Of a DNA stretch of 34,586 nt, positions 89 through 34,586 are shown piece by piece. The position numbers and the translations under genes are program-made. The DNA comes from Gammaproteobacteria bacterium (lineage in GTDB: Bacteria; Pseudomonadota; Gammaproteobacteria; Pseudomonadales; Azotimanducaceae). The notes beneath the pieces were generated by a model. The model saw nothing but the letters and a program-made list of their open reading frames with translations. It was not told where the DNA came from and made no database searches. The stretch covers positions 1 through 34,586 of the forward strand of contig JAPPHD010000010.1 in assembly GCA_028821125.1 (NCBI GenBank), given 5' to 3'. Within the stretch, counting starts at the first letter, position 1. Every line of letters begins with the position of its first letter.

Positions 89-124
89 ATCCAAACAGCG
101 CACGGGTTACCGCGGGGAAGACTG

Positions 125-1491
<1,367 letters not shown>

Positions 1492-1505
1492 TGATTTCGC
1501 AGCAA

Positions 1506-1531
1506 GGGCGCTGCGCCCGCCCGAATGGGCG
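1506..1531. other. Alternative hairpins in the hflC-purA gap
   Basis: GGGCGC at 1506-1511 pairs perfectly with GCGCCC at 1513-1518. CGCCC at 1518-1522 pairs with GGGCG at 1527-1531. The two stems touch at base 1518, so they may compete. No T-run follows on either strand, so this is not a classical terminator. It could be a processing or attenuation structure in the purA leader. Confidence 0.4.
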
Positions 1532-1583
1532 AACATCGGAAAGACTGCTTCATGGCCGGACGGTCGGATGAACTACCGTCGGG

Positions 1584-2453
1584 TTAACCCTCGTCGTCCT
1601 TCAGGTACTTGAAGAACTCGCTGTTCGGGTCGAGCACCAGCATGTCGCTCTTGTCGCCGAATACCTTGGCGTAGGCGTTGATGCTGCGGGTGAACTCATA
1701 GAATTCCGGGTCCTTGTTGAAGGCATCGGCATAGATGGATGCGGACATGGCATCGCCGTCGCCCCGGATCTGTTCCGCCTCCCGGTAGGCTTCCGCCTCG
1801 ATGACGACGGTCTGCCGTTCCGCGTCGGCCCGGATACCGAGCGCCAGTTCCTGGCCTTGCGCCCGGTACTGGCGGGCCTCGATTTCGCGTTCCGAGTTCA
1901 TCCGTTCATACACGGACGTGGAGACTTCGGTGGGCAGGTCGATGCGCTTCACCCGCACATCGATCACCTCCACGCCGACGGCGTCCTGCATCACGCGGTT
2001 GAGGTCCGCGGTGAGTTCCTGCATGAGCTGATCCCGTTCCCCGGAGATCACCTCGTGCATGTCGCGGCGGCTGATGGCGTTGCGCAGGCCCTCGTTGACC
2101 CGCTCCTGCAGCACGCGGTTGGCCCGGCCTTCGTCGCCGGAGCTTGCGGTGTAGTAGTTCTCGACATTGACGATCCGCCACTTGGCGAAGGAATCGACGA
2201 TGAGCGGTTTTTTCTCCAGCGTGTAGTAGGTTTCCGGGCTGGAATCCAGGGTCAGCACCCGGGCGTCGAATTTCTTCACCTCTTCGGCGATGGGCAGCTT
2301 GAAGTGCAGCCCCGGGGGAACGTCCGCCCGGCTGACCGCACCGAAGCGCAGCAGTATCGCCCGCTCCGTCTCGCGCACGATGTAGACGCTCTGCAACAGC
2401 AGCAGCACCGCCACCACGCCGATGACAACGAGGACGAAATTACGAAGGTTCAT
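1584..2453 (-). CDS. hflC: HflC, SPFH/prohibitin-family modulator of FtsH
   Basis: HflC forms a large periplasm-facing membrane complex with HflK around the FtsH protease and limits its activity. The 289-residue protein starts MNLRNFVLVVIGVVAVLL, a single N-terminal signal-anchor segment at about residues 5-25. An SPFH domain with the TERAILLRFG start follows, then the YRAQGQELA and EAYREAEQIRGDGDA helical region typical of HflC. The stop lies 166 nt before purA. The start is 21 nt after the hflK stop, so the two are probably co-transcribed and made in matching amounts. In E. coli a small gene (yjeT), and in many other proteobacteria hisZ, lies between hflC and purA; neither is present here. 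Confidence 0.96.
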   Translation of the reverse strand: MNLRNFVLVVIGVVAVLLLLQSVYIVRETERAILLRFGAVSRADVPPGLHFKLPIAEEVKKFDARVLTLDSSPETYYTLEKKPLIVDSFAKWRIVNVENYYTASSGDEGRANRVLQERVNEGLRNAISRRDMHEVISGERDQLMQELTADLNRVMQDAVGVEVIDVRVKRIDLPTEVSTSVYERMNSEREIEARQYRAQGQELALGIRADAERQTVVIEAEAYREAEQIRGDGDAMSASIYADAFNKDPEFYEFTRSINAYAKVFGDKSDMLVLDPNSEFFKYLKDDEG

Positions 2454-2474
2454 CTGTTGCTCCTTGTCTCTGTT

Positions 2475-3620
2475 CTATCTGGTGTCGCGGTTGATGCGGC
2501 CGCCGGCAATGCGGTCGTTGATCTCGCGCATCACGGCATCCGCCAGCGACCGGACGGTTTCCTGCCCGGCGGTACCGCCGGCGATGGATCCGGCCTGCGA
2601 GAACCGGTCGAGCGGCAGGTACATCAGGTTGTTGCCGCCTTCCACGTCGACCATGATCTTCGAACTCCTGGAAAGCACTGCTTCGATGGCATCGATGTAG
2701 AGCCGGTCGCGGGTCACCCGCTGGGCGACGGTGTACTCGGCGAGCAGCTTTTCGAATCGCTGCGCCTCGCCCTGGGCGCGCGCCACCACCTGGTCGCGGT
2801 AGGCGTTGGCTTCCTCGATCAGCTTCTGGGCCTCACCCCGGGCCGTGGGGATGATGCTCTCCGCATAGGCGTTCGCTTCGTTGATGACCCGCTGCTCGTC
2901 TTCCTTGGCCTTCTGCACGTCGTTGAAGGCATCCCGCACCTGGTTCGGCGGGGCGCTCTCGTCGATGTTCACCTTGCTCACGAGGATGCCGGTTTCGTAG
3001 CGGTTGAGATACGACTGCAACCGCTCCTGTACCTCAATGGCGATGGCGGCGCGCCCGTCGGTGATGACCTGGTCCATGACGGAGCCACCCACCACATGGC
3101 GCAGGGCGCTTTCCGTGGCATGGTCGAGGCTGACCTCCGGGTTGCGCACCCGCACGAGGAAGGAGACCGGATCGTCCACCACATATTGCACGGTCATGCT
3201 GACGTCGACGATGTTCTCGTCTTCGGTGAGCATGAGCGCCTGGTGTTTCTTGGAACGCACCCGAGTGACGTTGACTTTCTCAACACGGTCGATGATCGGC
3301 GGGTTCCAGTGCAGCCCCGGCATGACGAAACTCTCCTGCACCGCCCCGAAGCGGAACACGACGCCGCGCTCGCCCTGGTCGACCTGGTAGAGGCCCCAGA
3401 GCCCGTAAACGATGGCCAGCACCACCAGCCCCAGGCCGAGCAGGCCGGTGCTGATGCCGCCGCCGCCCCCGCCCTTGTCGCGGCCGCCGCCGCGACGCCG
3501 GCCGAAGATGCCGGCAAGCTGTGCCTGAAGCTTCTTGAACGCCTCATCGAGATCCGGCGGACCCTGGTCGCCGCTGTTGCCCCAGGGGTCCCGGCCGCCG
3601 CCCGGCTCATTCCAGGCCAT
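2475..3620 (-). CDS. hflK: HflK, SPFH/prohibitin-family modulator of FtsH
   Basis: HflK is the partner of HflC in the FtsH regulatory complex. Its 381 residues open with the characteristic Gly/Pro/Asp-rich cytoplasmic tail (MAWNEPGGGRDPWG), including a run of basic and glycine residues near 40-52. A transmembrane segment at about 57-78 and then the SPFH domain (VDQGERGVVFRFG) follow. The later EANAYRDQVVARAQGEA segment is the coiled-coil part. The ATG at 3620 has a GGAG ribosome-binding site. hflX ends 34 nt upstream and hflC begins 21 nt downstream, consistent with one operon. Confidence 0.96.
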   Translation of the reverse strand: MAWNEPGGGRDPWGNSGDQGPPDLDEAFKKLQAQLAGIFGRRRGGGRDKGGGGGGISTGLLGLGLVVLAIVYGLWGLYQVDQGERGVVFRFGAVQESFVMPGLHWNPPIIDRVEKVNVTRVRSKKHQALMLTEDENIVDVSMTVQYVVDDPVSFLVRVRNPEVSLDHATESALRHVVGGSVMDQVITDGRAAIAIEVQERLQSYLNRYETGILVSKVNIDESAPPNQVRDAFNDVQKAKEDEQRVINEANAYAESIIPTARGEAQKLIEEANAYRDQVVARAQGEAQRFEKLLAEYTVAQRVTRDRLYIDAIEAVLSRSSKIMVDVEGGNNLMYLPLDRFSQAGSIAGGTAGQETVRSLADAVMREINDRIAGGRINRDTR

Positions 3621-3654
3621 GGTTTGCTCCGTCGTTTGGAGAGGGGGGGAGATT

Positions 3655-4926
3655 CTAGCTTGGTTCGTCCGCGAAATCCCGCAACAGGCGGTCGAGATGC
3701 GCGCGGACTCCGGCGTCCGCGCGGACCGTCAAGAGGGTGCCGCCGTCCTCGGTGATCTCCTCGCCGAGAACAGCCCCTTTCTCGTACAGCCAGGCACGCG
3801 CCCGGCCGGCGGCAAGCGGCAGCGCCAGCGACACCGGCGCCTGCACACCCAGCGCCGCGCCGATCGCCTCGACCAGCCGTTCGAGTCCCTCTCCCGTCTT
3901 CGCGCTGACCTGTACGGTATTGCCCGTTCCGCCTTTCAGCGGGCCAGACCGCGCACCGCCGATGAGATCGCATTTGTTCAGCGCCGTAACCACCGGCACC
4001 GAGTCGGCGCCGATCTCCCGCAACACCCTTTCGACCTCGCGCCGGCGCCATCGCGACTCGGGTGCGCTGCGATCGACCACATGAACCAGGAGGTCGGCGT
4101 TGATCACCTCCTCCAGCGTGGCCTTGAAGGCATCGATGAGCGTGTGCGGCAGCCGGCTGACGAAGCCGACGGTGTCGGCCAGCACCACCTCGCCCGCGCC
4201 GGGCACATCGAGCCGGCGCATGGTGGGGTCGAGCGTTGCGAACAGGCGATCTTCCGCAACCGTCCGCGCCGCGGTCAACGCATTGAACAGGGTCGACTTG
4301 CCGGCGTTTGTGTAGCCGACCAGGGAGACGGTGGCCGCGCCGGACCGGCCGCGCCGGCGGCGGCCCTGCGCGCGGCGCCCGGCAACCTGTTCGAGCCGGG
4401 AGCGCACTTTCCCGATGCGCTCGGTGAGCATGCGCTTGTCCAGCTCGATCTGTGTCTCGCCGCCGCCGCGCAGCCCGATTCCTCCTTTCTGCCGGTCGAG
4501 GTGTGTCCAGCCCCGTACCAGGCGCGTTCGCGCGTGCTGGAGCTGGGCGAGTTCCACCTGCAGCTTGCCCTCGAAGGTGCGGGCGCGCTCGGCGAATATG
4601 TTGAGAATCAGCTCGGTGCGCGTCATCACCCGGCAGCCCACCACCCGTTCGAGGTTGCGCTGCTGGCCCGGCGACAGCTCTTCGTTCACCAGCACGAGGT
4701 CCGCCGAGTGCCTGGCTACCGCCGCGCGAACTTCCTTCGCCTTGCCCTCGCCGACCAGGAGCCTGGGGTGCCTTTCACGGCGTTTCGCGGCGATGCTCAG
4801 GGCAACGCCGACTTCCGCGGAACCGGCCAGTTCGCGGAATTCGCCCGCATCGAAGCGCTCGGCGCCCCGAAACTCGACATCAAGGAGTACCGCGTGGCGC
4901 CCGGGCGCGAATCGATCGAAAAACAA
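3655..4926 (-). CDS. hflX: HflX, ribosome-associated GTPase
   Basis: HflX binds the 50S subunit and splits stalled or heat-damaged ribosomes using GTP. The 423-residue protein has the N-terminal HflX domain, the glycine-rich linker with GLRGGGETQIELD (about 151-163), and a G domain. In the G domain, G1 is GYTNAGKST (204-212), G3 is DTVGF, and G4 is NKCD. A TTG start at 4926 gives the family-like N-terminus MFFDRFAPG, 17 nt after the hfq stop, and GGGAA lies upstream. The order hfq-hflX-hflK-hflC is conserved in gammaproteobacteria. Use of TTG suggests modest translation. Confidence 0.95.
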   Translation of the reverse strand: MFFDRFAPGRHAVLLDVEFRGAERFDAGEFRELAGSAEVGVALSIAAKRRERHPRLLVGEGKAKEVRAAVARHSADLVLVNEELSPGQQRNLERVVGCRVMTRTELILNIFAERARTFEGKLQVELAQLQHARTRLVRGWTHLDRQKGGIGLRGGGETQIELDKRMLTERIGKVRSRLEQVAGRRAQGRRRRGRSGAATVSLVGYTNAGKSTLFNALTAARTVAEDRLFATLDPTMRRLDVPGAGEVVLADTVGFVSRLPHTLIDAFKATLEEVINADLLVHVVDRSAPESRWRRREVERVLREIGADSVPVVTALNKCDLIGGARSGPLKGGTGNTVQVSAKTGEGLERLVEAIGAALGVQAPVSLALPLAAGRARAWLYEKGAVLGEEITEDGGTLLTVRADAGVRAHLDRLLRDFADEPS

Positions 4927-4943
4927 GCGCCGTTCCCGCTGCC

Positions 4944-5192
4944 TCAGCCCGGAGGTTGGGCTTCACGATCGCCCGATGGCGCCAACCTCACGTTGCGGGA
5001 CGGCACCACCGTCGAGATCGCGTGCTTGTACACCATTTGACTGACACTGTTGCGCAGCAGCAGCACGAACTGATCGAAGGACTCGATCTGGCCCTGGAGC
5101 TTGATGCCGTTCACCAGGTAGATCGAGACCGGAATACGTTCCTTTCTTAGTGTGTTCAGGTAAGGGTCTTGTAGGGAATGCCCTTTTGACAT
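4944..5192 (-). CDS. hfq: Hfq RNA chaperone
   Basis: Hfq forms a hexameric Sm-like ring that pairs small RNAs with mRNAs. The protein is 82 residues, short compared with 102 in E. coli because its C-terminal tail is brief. The Sm1 region ([21 protein letters not shown]) and the Sm2 motif [12 protein letters not shown] are intact, including the YKH motif. The ATG at 5192 has a strong AAGGAGA site six nt upstream. It follows miaA after a 229-nt gap, so it probably also has its own promoter, as in E. coli. hflX starts 17 nt after its stop. Confidence 0.97.
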
Positions 5193-5421
5193 GTGGATTC
5201 TCCTTGCCTAATCGGCTTCAAATATGGCGGCCAAACCAGCGCAGGGGCCACCAGGTTCCACCGGCTGTTGATTTTGCTCTCACGGGTGATTCCACCCGTT
5301 TCGGCGCCCCTTTGACTGCCGGAATTACAAGGGGTTCCCGTTCCCGGAACTATGGCCACACCGCCTTGTCATTGCAAGGCGACATCGGCCGGAACCCCCG
5401 GGGAAATCGCTGAAAAGCCTG
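5193..5421. other. miaA-hfq intergenic region with two perfect hairpins
   Basis: This 229-nt gap between two co-oriented genes holds two short perfect stems. ACGGGTG at 5282-5288 pairs with CACCCGT at 5293-5299 (4-nt loop). CGCCTTG at 5362-5368 pairs with CAAGGCG at 5375-5381 (6-nt loop). Neither is followed by a T-run in the direction of transcription. They may be leader structures for hfq, whose mRNA is self-regulated in other species. No clear -35/-10 pair was found. Confidence 0.4.
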
Positions 5422-6348
5422 TCAGTTGCTGCCGGCGAGCACCCGCGTAGCGGCAATGGCAGGGTCCTGCCAATCGAGCGGTGTTAGCCCGGGCCACTTT
5501 CGCAACCAGGTGAACTGCTTCTTGGCGAGTTGCCGGGTTGCCGCTATGGCCTTCCCGCGCATTTCGTCGGCATCGAGGTTTCCGTCGAGGAAATCCCACA
5601 TCTGGCGGTAGCCAACCGCCCGCATGGACGGCAACCCGGGATGCAGGTCGCCGCGCGCTCGGAGCGCGCGCACTTCGTCGGAGAAACCGGCCTCGAGCAT
5701 TGCGTCGAAGCGGTCGGCGATACGCCCGTGCAGCCGTGACCGGTCCTCGGGCATGACCCCGAACGACAGCACCGGCTCGCCAAGGCGGTGCTGCGCCCCG
5801 CGATGCGCCTGCTCACGCCAGAACGCGGAAATGGGGCGCCCGGTCGACTCGTAGACCTCGAGAGCCCGTTGCAGGCGCTGCGGATTGTTGGGGTGGATGG
5901 CCGCCGCGGCTTCTGGATCCACGCGGGAAAGCCGATCGTGCAGCGCTTCCCAGCCGTGGGCGGCCGCCCGCGCGCCGATGTCCGCGCGAATCGCCGCGCT
6001 CGCCTGCGGAAGCTCCGCCAGCCCGTCACGAAACGCGCGGGCATAGAGCATGGCCCCGCCGACGAGCACGGGCAGCCTGCCGGCGCGGCGTGCCGCATCC
6101 ACTTCCCGGTCCGCGTCCTGCACGAATGCGGCCGCCGAATAGGTTTCGGCCGGATCGCGGATGTCGATGAGAGCGTGGGGATGGCGGGCAATCGTCGCGG
6201 CGTCCGGTTTGGCCGTGCCGATGTCCATGCCGCGATAGACCATGGCCGAATCCATACTGATGAGGTGGCAGGGCGCCAGATCGGCAAGGGCCAGTGCGGT
6301 GGCCGTCTTGCCCGCCGCCGTGGGCCCGAGCAGCATCACGATCGGCAT
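5422..6348 (-). CDS. miaA: tRNA dimethylallyltransferase
   Basis: MiaA transfers a dimethylallyl group to N6 of A37 in tRNAs that read codons starting with U. The 308-residue protein has the normal length. It carries the P-loop GPTAAGKT (residues 8-15), the DSAMVYRGMDIGTAKP segment with the catalytic Asp, and the AVGYRQMWDFLDG and ATRQLAKKQFTWLR motifs that contact tRNA. The ATG at 6348 lies 40 nt after the mutL stop, and no strong ribosome-binding site is visible. Its place between mutL and hfq matches the E. coli order. Confidence 0.97.
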   Translation of the reverse strand: MPIVMLLGPTAAGKTATALALADLAPCHLISMDSAMVYRGMDIGTAKPDAATIARHPHALIDIRDPAETYSAAAFVQDADREVDAARRAGRLPVLVGGAMLYARAFRDGLAELPQASAAIRADIGARAAAHGWEALHDRLSRVDPEAAAAIHPNNPQRLQRALEVYESTGRPISAFWREQAHRGAQHRLGEPVLSFGVMPEDRSRLHGRIADRFDAMLEAGFSDEVRALRARGDLHPGLPSMRAVGYRQMWDFLDGNLDADEMRGKAIAATRQLAKKQFTWLRKWPGLTPLDWQDPAIAATRVLAGSN

Positions 6349-6388
6349 GGGTGGTACCGGATTCCCTTCGGTTGCTTGTGCGAAACCG

Positions 6389-8203
6389 CTACTGGCCGCG
6401 CAGGAACCGGCGGTCGAGGTCGCCCAGCGTCTCCACCAGGAAGGTCGGCCGGCCGTGGTTGCACTGTTCCGCGTTTTCGGTCTGCTCCATCGCGCGCAGC
6501 AGCGCGTTCATCTCGGCAATCGTCAACGTGCGGTGCGCCCGCACGGAGGCGTGACAGGCCATGCCGGCCAGCAGATCGTCCTGGCGGTTGCCGATTTCCC
6601 GAGTGGCGCCCGCCTCGGCAAGCTCCGCGAGCACGTCGCCGGCGAGTTGCTCCACGTCCGCACCCGCCAGCAGCGCCGGCACCTCCCTGACCGTCACGCT
6701 GCAGAGGCCCGTGCGGTCGATCACCATGCCCATGGCGGACAATTCGCCCCGGGCGGTCTCCGCCAGTTCGGCCTCCGCTTCGGTGGTATCGAATGCCAGG
6801 GGAACCAGCAGCCGCTGCGTGACCACCCCGTTTTCGGCCGCCGATTCCTTGAGCTTTTCGTAGGTGATGCGCTCGTGGGCGGCGTGCATGTCCACCACCA
6901 CCAGGCCCTGCGCGTTCTGCGCCAGGATGTAGATACCGTGGAGTTGCGCTAGGGCATAGCCGAGGGGAGGCGCATCCTCGGCGTCTCCCGCTAATGAATC
7001 CGGATACCTGGCCAACGCCTCCGTCACGGCCAGGGTGGAACCGCCGGCCCCGGGCGTACCGAGACCGAGCTTCGCGCTGGCTCCGGCATACGGGGCGGCG
7101 GCGCCAATGCTTCCGGACCGATGCAACGGCTCCCGGTCAGGCGCGGTTTCCCGGAACCCATCCCCAGACGGCGCCGGTACCGACCCCGGCCGCACATCGC
7201 GCAGCGCACGGTTCAACCGGCCGAATATGAAGTCGTGCACGTCCCGGGCCTTCCTGAAGCGCACCTCGTACTTGGTGGGATGCACATTCACGTCCACCTC
7301 GTCCGGCGGCAGTGCCAGATACAGCGCGAACAGGGGATGCCGGCCGTGGAACAGCACATCCCGGTAGGCCTGACGGATCGCGTGGGCCACCAGCCTGTCG
7401 CGCACCGCCCGGCCGTTGACGAAGAAAAACTGCCGGTCGGCCTGCCCGCGCGAGTTCGTCGGCAGGCCCACCCAGCCGTGCAAGCGGAGGCCCCCGCGCT
7501 CTTCATCGATGGCGAGACTGCGCTCCACGAACTGCGGGCCCAGCACCGCCGCCAGCCGCGCCACGGCGTCTCCGGCGGCCATGGTGTGCCGCTTCGCCCC
7601 GACGCGCAGTTCCATGCCGACATCGAATCGGGACAGCGCCAGGCGCCGCAGCGCGGCCTCCACCTGCTGCGTTTCGGTACGCTCCGTTTTCAGGAAGCGC
7701 CGCCTGGCCGGCGTGTTGTAGAACAGGTCTTCCACCTCGACGGTGGTGCCGGGCGGGTGCCCCCGGGGCCCTTCGCTTGCGACCTCGCCGCCGTGCACGG
7801 CGATGTGACAGCCCATCGGCTCGTCGCGAACGCGGCTGGCGATAGTGAGCCGGGACACCGATGCGGCGCTGGCAAGCGCCTCGCCCCGGAATCCAAGGCT
7901 CCTGACACCGAGCAGGTCATCGATGTTCGAGACCTTGCTGGTCGCATGCCGGCTGACGGCGAGCACCAGGTCCTCCGGATGAATCCCGAAGCCGTCGTCG
8001 ACCACGCGCACCCGCTTGACGCCACCCTGCTCGATCAGCACTTCCACCCGGCGCGCCCCCGCATCGAGGCTGTTCTCCACAAGCTCCTTGACGATCGAAG
8101 CGGGCCGCTCCACCACTTCGCCGGCAGCGATCTGGTCGGCAACGAACTGCGGCAGCAATGCGATGCGGTCAGTCAATGCAACACCCAGCGCGCGATCTTC
8201 CAC
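6389..8203 (-). CDS. mutL: DNA mismatch repair protein MutL
   Basis: MutL couples mismatch recognition by MutS to strand removal. The N-terminal GHKL ATPase is clear: IAAGEVVERPASIVKELVEN, DDGFGI and the SLGFRGEALASAASV lid. The C-terminal domain has DMHAAHERITYEKL, ACHASVR and CNHGRPT. These resemble the endonuclease motifs found in MutL of species lacking MutH and absent from E. coli MutL, so nicking activity is likely. The start is uncertain. GTG at 8203 or TTG at 8206 give an N-terminal extension, while TTG at 8176 gives the usual beginning close to RIALLPQ. None has a good ribosome-binding site. A repeat element separates it from amiB. Confidence 0.96.
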   Translation of the reverse strand: MEDRALGVALTDRIALLPQFVADQIAAGEVVERPASIVKELVENSLDAGARRVEVLIEQGGVKRVRVVDDGFGIHPEDLVLAVSRHATSKVSNIDDLLGVRSLGFRGEALASAASVSRLTIASRVRDEPMGCHIAVHGGEVASEGPRGHPPGTTVEVEDLFYNTPARRRFLKTERTETQQVEAALRRLALSRFDVGMELRVGAKRHTMAAGDAVARLAAVLGPQFVERSLAIDEERGGLRLHGWVGLPTNSRGQADRQFFFVNGRAVRDRLVAHAIRQAYRDVLFHGRHPLFALYLALPPDEVDVNVHPTKYEVRFRKARDVHDFIFGRLNRALRDVRPGSVPAPSGDGFRETAPDREPLHRSGSIGAAAPYAGASAKLGLGTPGAGGSTLAVTEALARYPDSLAGDAEDAPPLGYALAQLHGIYILAQNAQGLVVVDMHAAHERITYEKLKESAAENGVVTQRLLVPLAFDTTEAEAELAETARGELSAMGMVIDRTGLCSVTVREVPALLAGADVEQLAGDVLAELAEAGATREIGNRQDDLLAGMACHASVRAHRTLTIAEMNALLRAMEQTENAEQCNHGRPTFLVETLGDLDRRFLRGQ

Positions 8204-8251
8204 CAATTCGCATGCGCGTCGGAACCCGGTGCGCCTGGACGCTGACTTTGT

Positions 8252-8446
8252 GGGAACAACGCCTGATTTCGGGAAAGAGTTTGCATGCGGGGCTTCCCTT
8301 TCGGCGCGTTAAGCTCGTCCAATGACCTTGCGTACGGCAGGATGATGTGGCCGTGCGCCGAAAGGGAAGCGCCGTATGCGAACTCGCTGTTGAGACTGAC
8401 GATATTGTGTAAAACAACTTTTTCTTTAAAATCAAATAATTAGATA
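8252..8446. repeat. Dispersed palindromic element, family 1, complete copy
   Basis: Two 31-nt arms, 8277-8307 and 8355-8385, are inverted copies matching at 28 of 31 positions, separated by a 47-nt spacer. Outside the left arm, 8253-8276 matches the purA-side copy (reverse of CTCTTTCCC and GCGTTGTTCC). Outside the right arm, 8386-8446 matches the copy at the window end through CTCGCTG, TGACGATATT and TAAAATCAAA. The two arms differ at a few bases, and each arm's variants recur in the matching partial copy, so left and right ends are distinct. It fills the gap between mutL and amiB. Confidence 0.88.
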
Positions 8447-8467
8447 ATTTTCCATGCAAGCGGCCAA

Positions 8468-9847
8468 CTAGGACCGCACCGGTATCACGATGACCTGGCC
8501 GACCCGAATGCGGTCGCCCCGCATTCCGTTGGCCCGCTGGATGCGGGCCATGCTGGTCCCGTGCCGTTCGGCGATCTCGGAAAGCGTATCGCCGCGCTCG
8601 ACCACATAGCGCAATTCCCCCGAAGCCTGCTGGGCCGCGAGCAGGGTGCCGGCCGGAGGGGAATTGCGCATGTACTCCGTTACCCCGGCATGGATCGCGC
8701 GGACAAGCTTGCGCTGGTGATCCGCCTGGCTGAGTCGGCGCGCCTCCCGCGGATTGGAGATGTATCCCGTCTCGACCAGGAGGCTCGGGATGTCCGGCGA
8801 CTTGAGCACGGCAAAACCGGCCTGGCCAACTTTCCTGCTGTGCAGCTTGGTCACGCCGCCAAGTTTCTTCAGCACCGTCTCCCCAACTTCCAGGCTGGCC
8901 GCCAGGTTGGCGTCCATCGATAGGTCCAGCAGCACCTGGGCGAGCACGTCGTCCTTGTCGTCGAGGCTCACGTTGCCGACACCGCCGATCAGGTCCGACC
9001 GGTTCTCCTTCTCGGCCAGCCAGCGGGCCGTCTCGCTGGAAGCGCCCCGCTGGGAGAGCGCATAGACCGAGGCGCCGCTGGCCGCGGGGCTCTTGAACGC
9101 GTCGGCGTGCATGGAGATGAACATGTCCGCCCGTTCGCGCCGCGCGATTTCGACCCGCCTGCGCAGCGGGATGTAGTAGTCCCCCTTGCGCACCAGCACG
9201 GCACGATAACCCGGGGTGTCGTTGAACAGCGACGCCAGCTTGCGGGACATCTGCAGAACCACCGTCTTCTCGTACAGGCCGTGGGCCCCAACCGCGCCCG
9301 GGTCTTCGCCGCCGTGGCCGGCATCGACGGCGATGATCACGTCACGCTTGCCGGCCCGGGATTGCACGGGCGGTGACGGCGGCTCTGCGCGGCCCTCTTC
9401 GAACAGGTCGACAACCAGGCGATGCCCGTACGGAGACACCGGGTCCAGGGTGAAATGCTTCGGCTCGAAGTCGCCGGCCATGTCCAGAACCACCCTTCGG
9501 CCGCCACCCCGAGGCGCCGTGCGGACACTGGCGATGCGCTTGTGTCCCCGCGCTGCCTTGCCGATGTCGAGACCGTCGGCCAGCGATGCGTTCAGGTCCA
9601 CAACCACCCGGTCGGGATCGGACAGCTTGAAGACCCTGTAGAGGACCGGCCCGGTTGACTCGAACACGACCCTGGTGTGTTCCGGCGCCTCGTGCATCCT
9701 CACGCGCTCGACCACCGCGGCCCCGGCCGGCAACGTCACCGCCGTTGCGGCAACGCAGCACAGCCACGCCATACCCGGAGCCATGTGCCACCGCAACCGT
9801 TCCGCGAGCGATGGCAGAGTAGCGTCGACGGGGCTTGCGGGCTTCAC
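8468..9847 (-). CDS. amiB: N-acetylmuramoyl-L-alanine amidase with AMIN and LysM domains
   Basis: The enzyme cleaves the peptide stem from N-acetylmuramic acid during septum splitting. GTG at 9847 overlaps the tsaE stop in a GTGA arrangement and gives 459 residues. An in-frame ATG at 9784 is the alternative. A hydrophobic export signal (MAWLCCVAATAVTLPAGAA) is near residues 26-44. It is followed by an AMIN domain (about 48-145), an Amidase_3 zinc domain with VDAGHGGEDPGAVG, SMHADAF and the catalytic Glu in LLVETGYISN, and one C-terminal LysM (YVVERGDTLSEIAERHG) that binds peptidoglycan. The gene order tsaE-amiB-mutL is conserved. Confidence 0.95.
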   Translation of the reverse strand: MKPASPVDATLPSLAERLRWHMAPGMAWLCCVAATAVTLPAGAAVVERVRMHEAPEHTRVVFESTGPVLYRVFKLSDPDRVVVDLNASLADGLDIGKAARGHKRIASVRTAPRGGGRRVVLDMAGDFEPKHFTLDPVSPYGHRLVVDLFEEGRAEPPSPPVQSRAGKRDVIIAVDAGHGGEDPGAVGAHGLYEKTVVLQMSRKLASLFNDTPGYRAVLVRKGDYYIPLRRRVEIARRERADMFISMHADAFKSPAASGASVYALSQRGASSETARWLAEKENRSDLIGGVGNVSLDDKDDVLAQVLLDLSMDANLAASLEVGETVLKKLGGVTKLHSRKVGQAGFAVLKSPDIPSLLVETGYISNPREARRLSQADHQRKLVRAIHAGVTEYMRNSPPAGTLLAAQQASGELRYVVERGDTLSEIAERHGTSMARIQRANGMRGDRIRVGQVIVIPVRS

Positions 9848-10377
9848 TGTTGTCGCCCTACGGCGCACGCCGCATCCCGCGCGCGTTCGCCCCCAAGCGC
9901 GCACGCCGTTGCCAACGTCCCCGAACGCACGCGAATCTCCGCACACCTGCCTTCGCCTTTGACGAAAAGCGCGACTTCGAGATCCGGACCCGGCAGGTGC
10001 GCCCCGGCACGCTCAGGCCATTCGATGAGCTTGATCGATGCGCCGGCCATGTGTTCGTCGATGCCGATGAATTCGAGTTCACGGCTGTCGAGAATCCGAT
10101 AGAAGTCGAAATGGTAAACGCTGTACTCGTCATAGGGTTCAAGCAGCGTGTAGGTAGGGCTCTTGACCGCGCCCCGGAATCCGAACGCACGCAGTATGCC
10201 GCGTACCAGCGTGGTCTTTCCAGCACCGAGTTCGCCCCGCAGGAACACCACCGCATCGCCGCCGAAACCGTCCGCGGCCGCCAGCAGGCCAGCAAGTTCG
10301 GCGCCCAACTCAAGCGTCGCCTGTTCGTCGGCAAGAACTACCTTTCTCAAATCCATCGATCGCCGGGGAGCGGTCAT
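9844..10377 (-). CDS. tsaE: tRNA threonylcarbamoyladenosine biosynthesis ATPase TsaE
   Basis: TsaE is the P-loop ATPase that supports TsaB/TsaD in making t6A37 of ANN-decoding tRNAs. ATG at 10377 overlaps the nnr stop by 4 nt (ATGA). The protein is 177 residues with Walker A GELGAGKTT at 48-56, followed by the family signatures VKSPTYTLLEPY and HFDFYRI, then a WPER segment. The C-terminal tail after about residue 150 is longer than in E. coli TsaE and of low complexity. Its stop overlaps the amiB GTG. The nnr-tsaE-amiB chain of overlaps suggests translational coupling. Confidence 0.95.
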   Translation of the reverse strand: MTAPRRSMDLRKVVLADEQATLELGAELAGLLAAADGFGGDAVVFLRGELGAGKTTLVRGILRAFGFRGAVKSPTYTLLEPYDEYSVYHFDFYRILDSRELEFIGIDEHMAGASIKLIEWPERAGAHLPGPDLEVALFVKGEGRCAEIRVRSGTLATACALGGERARDAACAVGRQQ

Positions 10378-11822
10378 TGCAGCAACTCGGCGATCGGTTC
10401 GTAGAGGTCGGTTGCGATCAGCCCCCGCCGGCTGCCGCGCTCGGCGGCCAGGTCCGCCGCGCGACTGTGCAGGCAGGTGCCGATGACGGCTGAATCGGCT
10501 GCGCCAAGGCCCTGGGCAAGCAGGCCGCCGATGATGCCGCTGAGTACGTCGCCCATGCCCGCCGTTGCCATGCCCGGATTGCCGTGACTGCATACGCCGA
10601 GCAGCCTGTCTGCCGCGCAGACGGTGCCCGGGCCTTTCAGCACGGCCACCCCGCCTGTCGTGCCGGCGAGTTTCAGGGCCGATCCGGGCCGGTCTGCCTC
10701 CACCTCCGCCACGGTCGTCCCCAGCAAATGCGCCGCTTCGGCCGCGTGGGGCGTCACCACCGGCGCGGCGGCGGGCGCCGCATCGAGATCGGCCAGCCAA
10801 CGAAGCCCGTCGGCATCGATCAGCATCGGCCTGGGACACGCCACCGCCCTGGAGAACAGGCGTTCGCCCCAACTGGCGCGGCCGATACCGGGGCCGACGG
10901 CCAGCGCGGTCGCACGTTCGAGCAACTCAGCAACGGCATCCTCTTCGTCCGCGTCCTGCACCATTATTTCCGGGCGGCGCGCGAGGATCGCCGGACGGTG
11001 CGCCGCCCGCGTGACCACGCTCACCAGCCCGGCGCCGGTTCTGAGCGCCGCCTCGGCCGCCATGAGTACGGCGCCTCCCATATTGAAATCGCCGCCGACC
11101 ACAACCAGGTGGCCGGCGCGATGCTTGTACAGATCGACTCCCAGCGGAGGCAGCGACTCGCGCTCGAAGGTCAGCAGCGGACATCCGCGCACCCGGTCGA
11201 GAACCGATTGGGGCACGCCCAGGCCCGCATGCACGAGATCGCCTCGACACCTGAGCGCCGGGCCGGTGTGCAGGCCAAGCTTGGGCCCGATGAAACTCAC
11301 GGTCACATCGGCAAGCACGCTTTCACCCAATACGGCACCGGTATCGCCGCTGACGCCGGTTGGCACATCCACCGCCAGCACCGGCAGTCCACTCCCGTTG
11401 ATGCGGCCCACTGCCTCGGCAATTGCCTCCCTGGGAGGCCCTTTCAACCCCGTACCGAGCAACGCATCTACCAGCACCTCGCCGCGTACGGAAGCATCCG
11501 CCGGTTCCGGCGCAGCGCCGCGTTCCGCGGCCCATCGCCGGGCCAGCTCCGCATCGCCATGAAAATCCCCCTTGCCGACCTGAAGGATCTGCGCTTCGAT
11601 TCCGGTCTCCCGGGCCAGCCCCGCGATGACGTAGCCGTCACCCGCGTTGTTGCCCTTGCCGCAGAAAACGGTGATCGAGCGGGCCTGCGGCCAGCGCCCG
11701 GCCAACTCGTCGAAGGCCGCGCGGCCGGCGCGCAGCATGAGTTCGAAACCGGGAATACCGTGCTCGACGATGGCGATGCGGTCGAGTTCGCGGCATTGGG
11801 CGCTTGTATAAAGACTCGTCAC
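10374..11822 (-). CDS. nnr: Bifunctional NAD(P)HX epimerase/dehydratase
   Basis: This two-domain enzyme repairs hydrated NADH and NADPH. Residues 1 to about 215 form the epimerase (YjeF N-terminal) domain, with GKGNNAGDGYV and a PTGVSGDTG loop. The rest is the ADP-dependent dehydratase of the ribokinase fold, with KHRAGHLVVVGG, VVTPHAAEAAHLLG and the NPGMATAGMGDVLSG signature. The length of 482 is normal. The start is GTG at 11822, and no upstream or nearby internal start gives a better N-terminus. A perfect TATAAT lies 8 nt upstream of the GTG (11836 to 11831), so the mRNA may start at or within a few bases of the start codon. queG diverges from it. Confidence 0.96.
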   Translation of the reverse strand: MTSLYTSAQCRELDRIAIVEHGIPGFELMLRAGRAAFDELAGRWPQARSITVFCGKGNNAGDGYVIAGLARETGIEAQILQVGKGDFHGDAELARRWAAERGAAPEPADASVRGEVLVDALLGTGLKGPPREAIAEAVGRINGSGLPVLAVDVPTGVSGDTGAVLGESVLADVTVSFIGPKLGLHTGPALRCRGDLVHAGLGVPQSVLDRVRGCPLLTFERESLPPLGVDLYKHRAGHLVVVGGDFNMGGAVLMAAEAALRTGAGLVSVVTRAAHRPAILARRPEIMVQDADEEDAVAELLERATALAVGPGIGRASWGERLFSRAVACPRPMLIDADGLRWLADLDAAPAAAPVVTPHAAEAAHLLGTTVAEVEADRPGSALKLAGTTGGVAVLKGPGTVCAADRLLGVCSHGNPGMATAGMGDVLSGIIGGLLAQGLGAADSAVIGTCLHSRAADLAAERGSRRGLIATDLYEPIAELLQ

Positions 11823-11830
11823 CGCGGCGC

Positions 11831-11838
11831 ATTATACT
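11831..11838. promoter_or_regulatory. Overlapping divergent -10 elements for nnr and queG
   Basis: The 22-nt gap between the two divergent start codons contains TATAAT on the minus strand (11836 to 11831) and TATACT on the plus strand (11833-11838), sharing four base pairs. Each hexamer ends 6-8 nt before the start codon of the gene it faces. This places the expected transcription start at or next to the start codon. No good -35 hexamer was found for either direction, and neither gene has a ribosome-binding site. Confidence 0.5.
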
Positions 11839-11844
11839 GCGGCA

Positions 11845-13071
11845 ATGACGCCGAAAACGGCATCCGAAGAAGCGCTGGGCAACGACATCGAACGCTGGGC
11901 CACAGAGTTCGGCTTCGAGCAGGTCGGCATCGCCGGCGTGGACCTCTCCGACCAGGAGCCGCACGTGCGCCGCTGGCTCGAGCGGGGTTTCAACGGCGAG
12001 ATGGGGTATCTCGGGCGCAACGTCGAGAAGCGGCTGCACCCCCCGCTGCTGGAGGCCGGAACCTGCACCGTGATCTCCGCACGCATGAACTATCTTCCCG
12101 CCGACTCCGACCCCATCGAAACCCTCGCCGACCCGGACCGGGCCTACATCGCCCGTTACGCGCTCGGGCGCGACTATCACAAGCTGATGCGACGCCGCCT
12201 CGCGAAGCTCGCGAAGCGAATCGATGCCGCCGTACAGGGTGTGGACGCACGGTTTCGGGCGTTTACCGACAGCGCGCCCGTGCTCGAGAAAGCGCTCGGC
12301 GAGCAGGCGGGCCTCGGCTGGATCGGCAAGCACACGCTGCTCATCCACCCCGATGCGGGAAGCTGGTTCTTCATCGGGGAGATCTACACCAACATCCCGC
12401 TACCCCCGACACGGGCAGCGGAAAAGGACCGCTGCGGCAATTGCAGGGCCTGCATGACCGTCTGCCCCACCGGCGCCATCGTCGGGCCGAAGCTGCTCGA
12501 CGCACGGCGCTGCATCTCCTACCTGACCATCGAGCACAGGACATCCATACCCGAGGACCTGCGCCCGCTGGTCGGCAACCGCATCTTCGGCTGCGACGAC
12601 TGCCAGCTCCACTGCCCCTTCAACCGCGATCCGCAAACCACCCGTGAAGAAGCTTTCTGGCCGCGCGCGCTGGACGTTCATCCCGTCGGTTCCGCCTTCA
12701 TCCACGGCCACACGGCATCGGTAACGGGGAATGACGAGTCGTCCCGAGAGCCCGGCATCGCTCCAGCGGACAACTCGAACCGGGCAACGAAATCCGCCGG
12801 TTCGAACCGGCTCGACCGGGCTGCGCTCCTTGAACTGTTCGCCTGGGACGAGGCGACCTTTCTGCGCAACACCGAAGGATCCGCCCTGCGGCGCATCGAC
12901 TACGAACGCTGGCAGAGGAATCTGGCCGTGGCGCTCGGCAACGGGCCGCCCTCGCCGCAGGTCATTGAGGCAATACAGCAGCGACTACCCGGTGCGACGC
13001 CGATGGTGCGCGAACACCTGGAATGGGCGCTTGCGCGCCTGCAAGACGGGTCCGGGATCGATTGCACGTAG
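11845..13071 (+). CDS. queG: Epoxyqueuosine reductase QueG, with an internal insertion
   Basis: QueG carries out the last step of queuosine synthesis in tRNA, reducing epoxyqueuosine with cobalamin and two [4Fe-4S] clusters. The first cluster motif has Cys at about 197, 200, 203 and 207 (CGNCRACMTVCPTGAI). The second has Cys near 250, 253 and 257 (CDDCQLHCPFNR). The C-terminal HEAT-like part (LFAWDEATFLRNTEGSALRR) is standard. The protein is 408 residues, about 30 longer than E. coli QueG. The excess is a polar stretch encoded at roughly 12675-12806, between WPRALD and LDRAALL. ATG at 11845 has no clear ribosome-binding site. It faces nnr as in E. coli. Confidence 0.95.
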   Translation: MTPKTASEEALGNDIERWATEFGFEQVGIAGVDLSDQEPHVRRWLERGFNGEMGYLGRNVEKRLHPPLLEAGTCTVISARMNYLPADSDPIETLADPDRAYIARYALGRDYHKLMRRRLAKLAKRIDAAVQGVDARFRAFTDSAPVLEKALGEQAGLGWIGKHTLLIHPDAGSWFFIGEIYTNIPLPPTRAAEKDRCGNCRACMTVCPTGAIVGPKLLDARRCISYLTIEHRTSIPEDLRPLVGNRIFGCDDCQLHCPFNRDPQTTREEAFWPRALDVHPVGSAFIHGHTASVTGNDESSREPGIAPADNSNRATKSAGSNRLDRAALLELFAWDEATFLRNTEGSALRRIDYERWQRNLAVALGNGPPSPQVIEAIQQRLPGATPMVREHLEWALARLQDGSGIDCT

Positions 13072-34426: not shown

Positions 34427-34507
34427 GTTGAAAATGCCTCTCGTGGCGGCAGCGAATACCCGAAGGATTCAGCCGAACAGGCTTTCATGGAACAAATCGC
34501 AAACCTT

Positions 34508-34586
34508 TGATTTTAGAGATATTTCTATTTGACATAATATCGTCAATCTCACCAGCGAGTTCGCATGCGGCGCTTCCCTTTCGGCG
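34508..34586 (-). repeat. Dispersed palindromic element, family 1, left part (cut by window end)
   Basis: The arm at 34557-34586 matches the reverse complement of 8355-8385 with one difference over 30 bases. Outward of the arm, similarity runs on through CTCGCTG, TGACGATATT and TAAAATCAAA to about 34508, without gaps. The copy has the same orientation as the one at the window start and the opposite one to 8252-8446. It lies upstream of gshA. Confidence 0.85.

Follow-up and report, generated by a model that had tools for sequence, protein, structure and literature searches.

What is the palindromic DNA lying between the mutL start and the amiB stop of this gammaproteobacterium, a mobile element or a structured RNA? 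The window, i.e. the whole 34,586-nt stretch analysed, corresponds to the entire contig C77 of a draft genome (G000; 5.28 Mb, 193 contigs, 97.3% complete). The initial annotation left both readings open, and placed a ~195-bp palindrome at 8252-8446. The palindrome, with its 31-nt arms and 47-nt spacer, was confirmed, but the alignment of copies retrieved from the genome moves its bounds to about 8212-8453, and the element is therefore 242 bp long. The complete copy, which belongs to the family called here fam1 and carries an IHF-type tail, is made on the plus strand by an outer left linker (8212-8252), a REP-like imperfect palindrome common to the copies which begins with ATGCGCGTCGG; a GGAACA left end and a CGGGAAA block preceding the arm (8253-8276, from aligned copies); the left arm (8277-8307), set by the inverted-repeat pair and arm alignment; the spacer (8308-8354), variable in its apical part and conserved at its flanks, GTTAAGCTCGTCC and GGATGATGTGGCCGT; the right arm (8355-8385), set by the inverted-repeat pair and genome pattern matches; and an AT-rich tail ending with TTTTCC (8386-8453). 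Within the tail, the sequence AATCAAATAATTA (8430-8442, plus strand) matches WATCAANNNNTTR, which we take to be the IHF consensus. The heptamer ATGCAAG which follows (8454-8460, plus strand) is read as host sequence on the basis of junction alignments. The two arms are paired at 28 of 31 positions (90% complementary). The predicted fold of the plus strand of 8240-8460 has an energy of -86.9 kcal/mol versus -60.2 +/- 4.2 for shuffled sequences (z -6.3); the z of the minus strand is -4.7.

The same order is found in the aligned copies: a linker starting with ATG-CGAG and holding the palindrome AACCCGGCGCGCCGGG, then GGAACAACGCC-GAAT-CTCGGGAAA, the hairpin, and one of several tails. The spacer is 47 nt long in 72 of 81 fam1 copies. 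In eight others (C16, C41, C52:41666, C97:15934, C111, C115, C116:10769 and C119) it measures 64-65 nt, the inner CCTTG...GCA motif being doubled and accompanied by an A-run. The ATG at the left end opens a short frame, but a coding role of the linker was discarded, as linker copies show by eye 1- or 4-nt indels. No promoter- or terminator-like site was found within 8200-8500, and shuffled sequences also yield almost none.

The partial copies reported at the window edges were confirmed, and each corresponds to one half of the element in the minus orientation. The left half of one copy (arm, part of the spacer and left end; 1-103) adjoins the 3' end of purA, and its segment 7-69 is an inverted match to 8271-8333 (92%). 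The right half of another (tail and part of the right arm; 34489-34586) lies upstream of gshA, and its segment 34506-34586 is an inverted match to 8356-8436 (85%); its target heptamer, assigned by eye, is ATGAAAG at 34482-34488 on the minus strand (CTTTCAT on the plus strand). The two copies are partial because the contig stops inside an element at both ends. Among about 100 of the 110 right-arm sites found in the genome, at least 13 begin in the first 150 nt of their contig; of 11 sites checked near contig ends, eight are at most 170 nt from the end.

These 110 sites were found by searching G000 with a pattern including the right arm and the adjoining spacer bases, at no more than three mismatches; the reversed pattern, used as control, gave none. 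The expectation of many copies was thus borne out, and the genome is far from lacking copies beyond the window. An independent count was made in 755,172 bases, formed by eight contigs in full plus 40 kb of one more, picked on contig size and not on element content. This sample contains 18 fam1 hairpins, of which 17 have both arms and one is cut, plus 11 hairpins of a second family, fam2 (seven with both arms), three lone fam1 arm matches (C142:47228, C172:7126 and C189:67123) having been set aside as chance. Scaled to the genome, the figures are ~126 fam1 and ~77 fam2 hairpins, an estimate to be read keeping in mind that large contigs may be copy-poor, because the assembly breaks at copies.

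When 57 relatives, including eight of the same genus, were searched at the DNA level, no fam1 match was obtained at E <= 0.001. Exact matches to the arm pattern were absent from viral contigs and from a species genome collection, which may not include the own genome. Plasmids and phages likewise yielded no match to the element, and neither the window nor five loci match Rfam at the gathering threshold; a known repeat family was thus not met in these three sources. MutL is 48-57% identical to the best 80 species-collection records listed, the top one (57%) being an uncultured gammaproteobacterium. No close named relative is apparent by sequence identity among the listed MutL matches, a collection from which records very near this genome may be missing.

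Among the 98 copies having 95 nt after the arm, 61 carry an AT-rich tail by composition alone. A set of 55 tails had been picked by using loose IHF and TTCCATG patterns, and since this choice could affect the counts of IHF sites and junctions, both were repeated on the tails picked by composition. Exact WATCAANNNNTTR occurs in 45 of the 55 tails, where the four N positions vary and the flanking bases are nearly fixed, and in 48 of the 61 tails picked by composition (0.25 on average in shuffles). Genes of the IHF-alpha type score above the family cut-off at three places in G000. AT-rich tails end with TTGTTCC. In the 55-tail set the next bases are ATG[AC]AAG in 40 and ATG[AC][AG][AG]G in 47 cases, and ATG lies 63-68 nt from the arm, with 36 tails at exactly 68 nt. 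In the set picked by composition, CC is at the expected place in 49 of 61 tails, followed by ATG in 43 and by ATG[AC]AAG in 35; the remaining 12 could not be placed by CC position. ATG[AC]AAG is found elsewhere within the first 60 nt in none of these 61 tails. By loose patterns, which misplace a few copies, tails fall into types A (51), B (25) and C (6 of 82). Inspection by eye indicates pairing between the left end and the short type of tail (GGAACAACGCC versus GGCGgTTGTTCC), whereas in AT-tailed copies the inverted ends pair only at GGAACA/TGTTCC.

At the opposite side, 18 of 41 left ends read ATGCGAG, four ATGAAAG and two ATGCAAG, and the base before varies. On the minus strand, copies are thus organized as host-CTT[TG]CAT / GGAACAA ... 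CTCGCAT / host. An eight-base target-site duplication was discarded, because the octamers at the two sides of a copy are not the same. The junctions fit a one-sided target, but the ATG at both sides of the element fits a 3-bp duplication as well. Beyond the target, host bases are non-random, being enriched in TTCC, partly from tandem copies. Since a one-sided target would not predict this, the enrichment counts against one-sided insertion.

All the copies had been described as intergenic. This holds for the window, but in other places the first codons of a gene are directly provided by the right end of some copies. A long frame starts from the junction ATG behind 17 of 55 copies (19 minus two running into a tandem unit). 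The length of the frame is not a discriminating test, as long ORFs start in frames 0, 1 and 2 after the junction in 19, 5 and 16 of the 55 copies, respectively, and start codons were judged therefore by comparison with relatives. NCBIfam models begin 0-2 residues from the element's ATG for PanC, ECH and RdgB. For 12 of the 17 genes, counterparts in genus mates were examined for the nearest in-frame start codon (C31, C158, C92, C110:100 and C190:29498 being outside the comparison). In ECH relatives ATG is at the same codon in all five cases, within ATGAAAG in four. In PanC relatives a start codon is at the same place in five of seven, within ATGAAAG in two. The place is the same in three of eight RdgB relatives. 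The start is one codon away in MoxR (one relative) and the Dsb-like gene (4/4), 0-1 codon away in PhyH (3/3), two in the P450-like gene of C129 (4/4) and LarB (2/2), three in HyuB (6/6), and six in the CoA transferase gene (5/5). The comparison is ambiguous for the cytochrome c gene and the C179 gene. On these grounds, the element's ATG at ECH and PanC is the predicted start codon also used by element-free relatives. The relatives of the Dsb-like, LarB and PhyH genes start with GTG or TTG, and at these sites the heptamer may have arrived with the element.

Empty sites have been identified in genus mates at amiB-mutL and at gene starts, hence at the level of species and not of strains. In the five mates in which the query met both genes, amiB and mutL are separated by 10-36 nt, versus at least 261 nt in G000. 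At the ECH locus a native GGAG resides upstream of the left end of the element. Words resembling a Shine-Dalgarno sequence occur at -16 to -5 in only two of 55 tails, and for this reason the AU-rich leader itself would be used for translation start behind the element. In C65 (~98-12053), further stretches resemble the gene which follows the contig-start element (matches at 6057, 9221, 10489 and 11949).

The hairpin has been maintained in a manner which points to one strand. In 81 fam1 copies, arm cells include 2373 Watson-Crick pairs, 97 G.U, 4 A.C and 37 other combinations, 10 of which involve N. In the 44 distinct arm pairs G.U and A.C are 46 and 4, at 11 and 3 arm positions, respectively, with 30 other cells. 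The ratio is 32:1, with one other cell, in 15 distinct fam2 arm pairs of G000, and 10:4, with five others, in 17 fam2 pairs of the genus mates, a difference which is not significant (p 0.18). As cells share ancestry, none of these ratios can be read as independent counts. Among 14 aligned fam2 sequences, both-sided changes affect 13 of 32 pairs, a figure reached by none of 500 shuffles and by no slid version of the alignment; in the genus mates, 16 of 30 positions show two or more Watson-Crick types. Because transition mismatches are G.U and rarely A.C, one single strand, either RNA or single-stranded DNA, is constrained. Judging from substitution patterns, the hairpin is under strand-specific constraint, with which RNA and single-stranded DNA are equally compatible. 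The possibility that arms resemble each other through template switching or gene conversion, by which one is copied onto the other, in a structure devoid of function, would account for compensatory changes of all kinds, as those at the 16 positions mentioned above. Yet arm copying predicts equal A.C and G.U leftovers, a prediction at odds with 46:4 and 32:1, though less so with the 10:4 of the mates, and we regard this explanation as very improbable.

Fam2 units adjoin several fam1 copies, and have the same linker, GGAACA end and IHF-type tail around a different hairpin. Because ends of the fam1 type surround another hairpin, hairpin cores appear to have been exchanged between common ends. Units of both families stand head-to-tail with one junction in common. 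Searches with a fam2 model, in which both strands were counted and 150 candidates per genome scored, identified the hairpin, mostly tail-less, in three genus mates (25 matches in G008, 21 in G006 and 4 in G002), one weak match in G004 (E 0.006) and no match in G001, G003, G005 and G007. The tail of one G006 copy (L156) is similar to the IHF type, at E 0.08 only. By eye, at L113 and L146 of G008 a bare fam2 hairpin directly precedes the coding start of a gene resembling type II secretion pseudopilins (GFSLIELMVVLVILG); the start-site habit may extend to bare fam2 hairpins. Some fam2 loops hold a common insert including several small hairpins (GGGTCGCCACCGGTCGGGCGC...CTTCGGCAGGTGGCGACGCCCCGCAACTGGTTGCGGGGC), found in G000 at C153, C112:48440-48830, C179:13060-13440 and C186:6800-7120, and in the mate G002 at L123. 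The insert could be a further, third family of repeats, harboured by the loop.

A RAYT or another transposase sharing the ends of the element was looked for, as the initial annotation had proposed, and none was found. PF01797 (Y1_Tnp) has no match in G000, an absence which is not absolute as the genome is 97.3% complete. No gene enclosed by element ends is present in the 755,172-base sample, and an autonomous copy was accordingly discarded for that sample. The three genus mates in which fam2 hairpins abound, G008, G002 and G006, carry a Y1_Tnp gene of ~215 aa, flanked by another palindrome, GAGGGCGTCCCGCCCTC. The corresponding loci (L238, L239 and L240) host, near GAGGGCGTCCCGCCCTCGATTGG palindromes, RAYT-like genes of 215-216 aa which are missing from G000. 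In G003, a fourth mate, the Y1 genes differ in size and fam2 matches are lacking. As the Y1 gene of the mates adjoins a different palindrome, its co-occurrence with fam2 may reflect only kinship. For the same reason, and for the absence of Y1_Tnp in G000, RAYT was rejected as partner of the element.

How does the element compare to known systems? REPs and BIMEs are high-copy palindromes set in intergenic mosaics, and their hairpins are recognised as single strands. The element shares abundance, palindromy and mosaic arrangement with the REP/BIME sequences associated with RAYTs. In contrast to REPs, palindromes of 20-40 nt carrying GTAG, it has 31-nt arms and a 47-nt loop, shows no GTAG or CGTC tag by eye, and lives in a genome in which Y1_Tnp was not found. 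Members of the IS200/IS605 group use a short, one-sided target which is kept whole, have a sequence resembling it at the opposite end, and feature a strand-specific hairpin. Under one-sided insertion, the element described here would share these traits, but its hairpin is central and much longer, its target is a heptamer rather than a tetra- or pentanucleotide, and no TnpA was found. With a size of 242 bp, no coding capacity, dispersal at 110 right-arm sites and empty sites in relatives, the element shares these features with bacterial MITEs; an autonomous partner with matching ends was not found in the 755,172-base sample. Small non-autonomous mobile repeats of bacteria, among which Correia/NEMIS, YPAL and ERIC, have been reviewed (PMC2229807), and those known so far are typically TA-ended or located at palindromes (PMC2229807, PMC3733652). 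As in the 155-bp form of the Correia/NEMIS elements of Neisseria, we find a short, non-coding mobile hairpin, mainly intergenic, with an internal IHF site and filled and empty sites. Correia elements have TIRs of ~24 bp and TA at their ends (PMC2229807), and it is by description that the two are set apart: the present element has a central hairpin, a one-sided tail and an ATG[AC]AAG junction, and TA-ended TIRs of ~24 bp were not seen by eye in its aligned ends. YPAL, or RU-2, of Yersinia (168 bp) is similar in having inverted repeats which are internal and not terminal, in not being AT-rich and in lacking TA ends (PMC2229807), but makes target duplications of 3-26 bp, whereas the present element has a strongly preferred junction and no such duplication was seen. 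The mosaic arrangement is known for BIMEs, and Rickettsia palindromic elements are also small palindromic mobile elements which meet coding sequences (PMC3733652, PMC2229807); RPEs reside in-frame within ORFs, whereas the present elements stop at the start codon. The element is best seen as a small non-autonomous mobile repeat like those reviewed in PMC2229807, lacking the tested defining features of both REP/RAYT and Correia sequences. Titles and opening lines of abstracts on small mobile repeats and sponge symbionts disclosed no recognisable element with start-codon junctions.

Taken as a whole, the data indicate that the repeats probably form a new non-autonomous foldback (MITE-like) family, inserted one-sidedly at ATG[AC]AAG. 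Of the two alternatives initially put forward, the non-autonomous mobile element is the one sustained by high copy number, lack of matches in 57 relatives, and filled versus empty sites. The structured RNA is sustained by compensatory changes and by the excess of G.U over A.C, signs of constraint on a strand-specific hairpin, but RNA and single-stranded DNA are not separable on this basis, and no Rfam match was found. According to the foldback hypothesis, the unit would consist of linker, GGAACA end and a ~30-bp hairpin with a 47-nt loop, joined in over half of the copies by the AT-rich IHF-type tail ending with TTGTTCC. Insertion would take place on one side of ATG[AC]AAG, directly upstream of ATG, so that the reading frame starting from it stays whole. 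Because ATGAAAG and ATGCAAG (Met-Lys, Met-Gln) occur at gene starts, insertion would bring copies to start codons, where they would form, and may function as, the 5' leader of the gene. The tolerance for G.U and hardly for A.C mismatches suggests that mobility may proceed via a single-stranded hairpin, and IHF would bend the tail during insertion or expression. Against the foldback hypothesis stand the failure to find a Y1 transposase in G000 and end-enclosed genes in the 755,172-base sample, the different repeat at the sides of the RAYT gene of the mates, the empty sites known between species and not strains, and the fact that fam1 mismatches other than G.U are not rare (37 cells besides A.C, 10 of them N, versus 97 G.U).

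Other scenarios have to be weighed. A cis-acting RNA, in which hairpin and AU-rich leader work as a 5' or 3' UTR structure affecting stability, RNase III processing or SD-less translation start, and copies are spread or retained by selection, is conceivable, if somewhat doubtful as a full account. It would explain the tolerance for G.U, hardly for A.C, the compensatory changes, the use of the element's ATG as start codon of conserved genes, and the scarcity of SD-like words. Yet constraint on single-stranded DNA accounts for the same G.U bias, the 8200-8500 region has no promoter- or terminator-like site (as is nearly always the case for shuffled sequences), and by crude gene calls many copies are antisense to, or face, genes of the opposite strand, as the amiB-mutL copy of the window. 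A cis-acting role and mobility are in any case compatible. Alternatively, the insertion of a circular form into a short core (ATG or CATGNRAG) could be the work of a site-specific recombinase or of an IS110-like system. Recombination would then have copied the core, leaving ATG on either side, and the joined ends, ...TTGTTCC-ATG-CGAGTCGG..., would be the attachment site. ATG followed by NRAG at both junctions (at the left, in the three forms counted among 41 ends) and the head-to-tail units of both families with one joint junction speak for this, as does the IHF site, since IHF sites are common beside recombination cores. Most such systems, however, need no strand-specific hairpin, and the sample contains no gene enclosed by the ends; we consider a recombinase unlikely. 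The hypothesis that a RAYT (Y1) transposase has spread a family of the REP/BIME kind fits abundance, palindromy, intergenic location and mosaic arrays with an IHF-type site, and can appeal to the ~215-aa Y1_Tnp of three mates rich in fam2 hairpins. It appears improbable, given that G000 (97.3% complete) gave no Y1_Tnp match, that GAGGGCGTCCCGCCCTC and not the element flanks the gene of the mates, that G003 combines Y1 genes of another size with no fam2 match, and that GTAG or CGTC tags were not seen by eye in the aligned ends.

Coming back to the foldback family, a broader proposal can be put forward only tentatively: these repeats could represent a mobile class which targets the start-codon heptamer ATG[AC]AAG, spares the frame, replaces the leader with a hairpin and an IHF-bound, AU-rich and SD-less leader, and has cores interchangeable between common ends. 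If so, dozens of genes in this one species would have had their translation or transcription rewired as the element spread, and genome-wide leader replacement would become directly measurable. The exchange of cores, along with strand-biased compensatory evolution, would offer a test of whether the hairpin is recognised as RNA or as single-stranded DNA. Start-codon junctions would also illustrate a way for selfish DNA to multiply in a genome densely packed with genes while leaving these intact.
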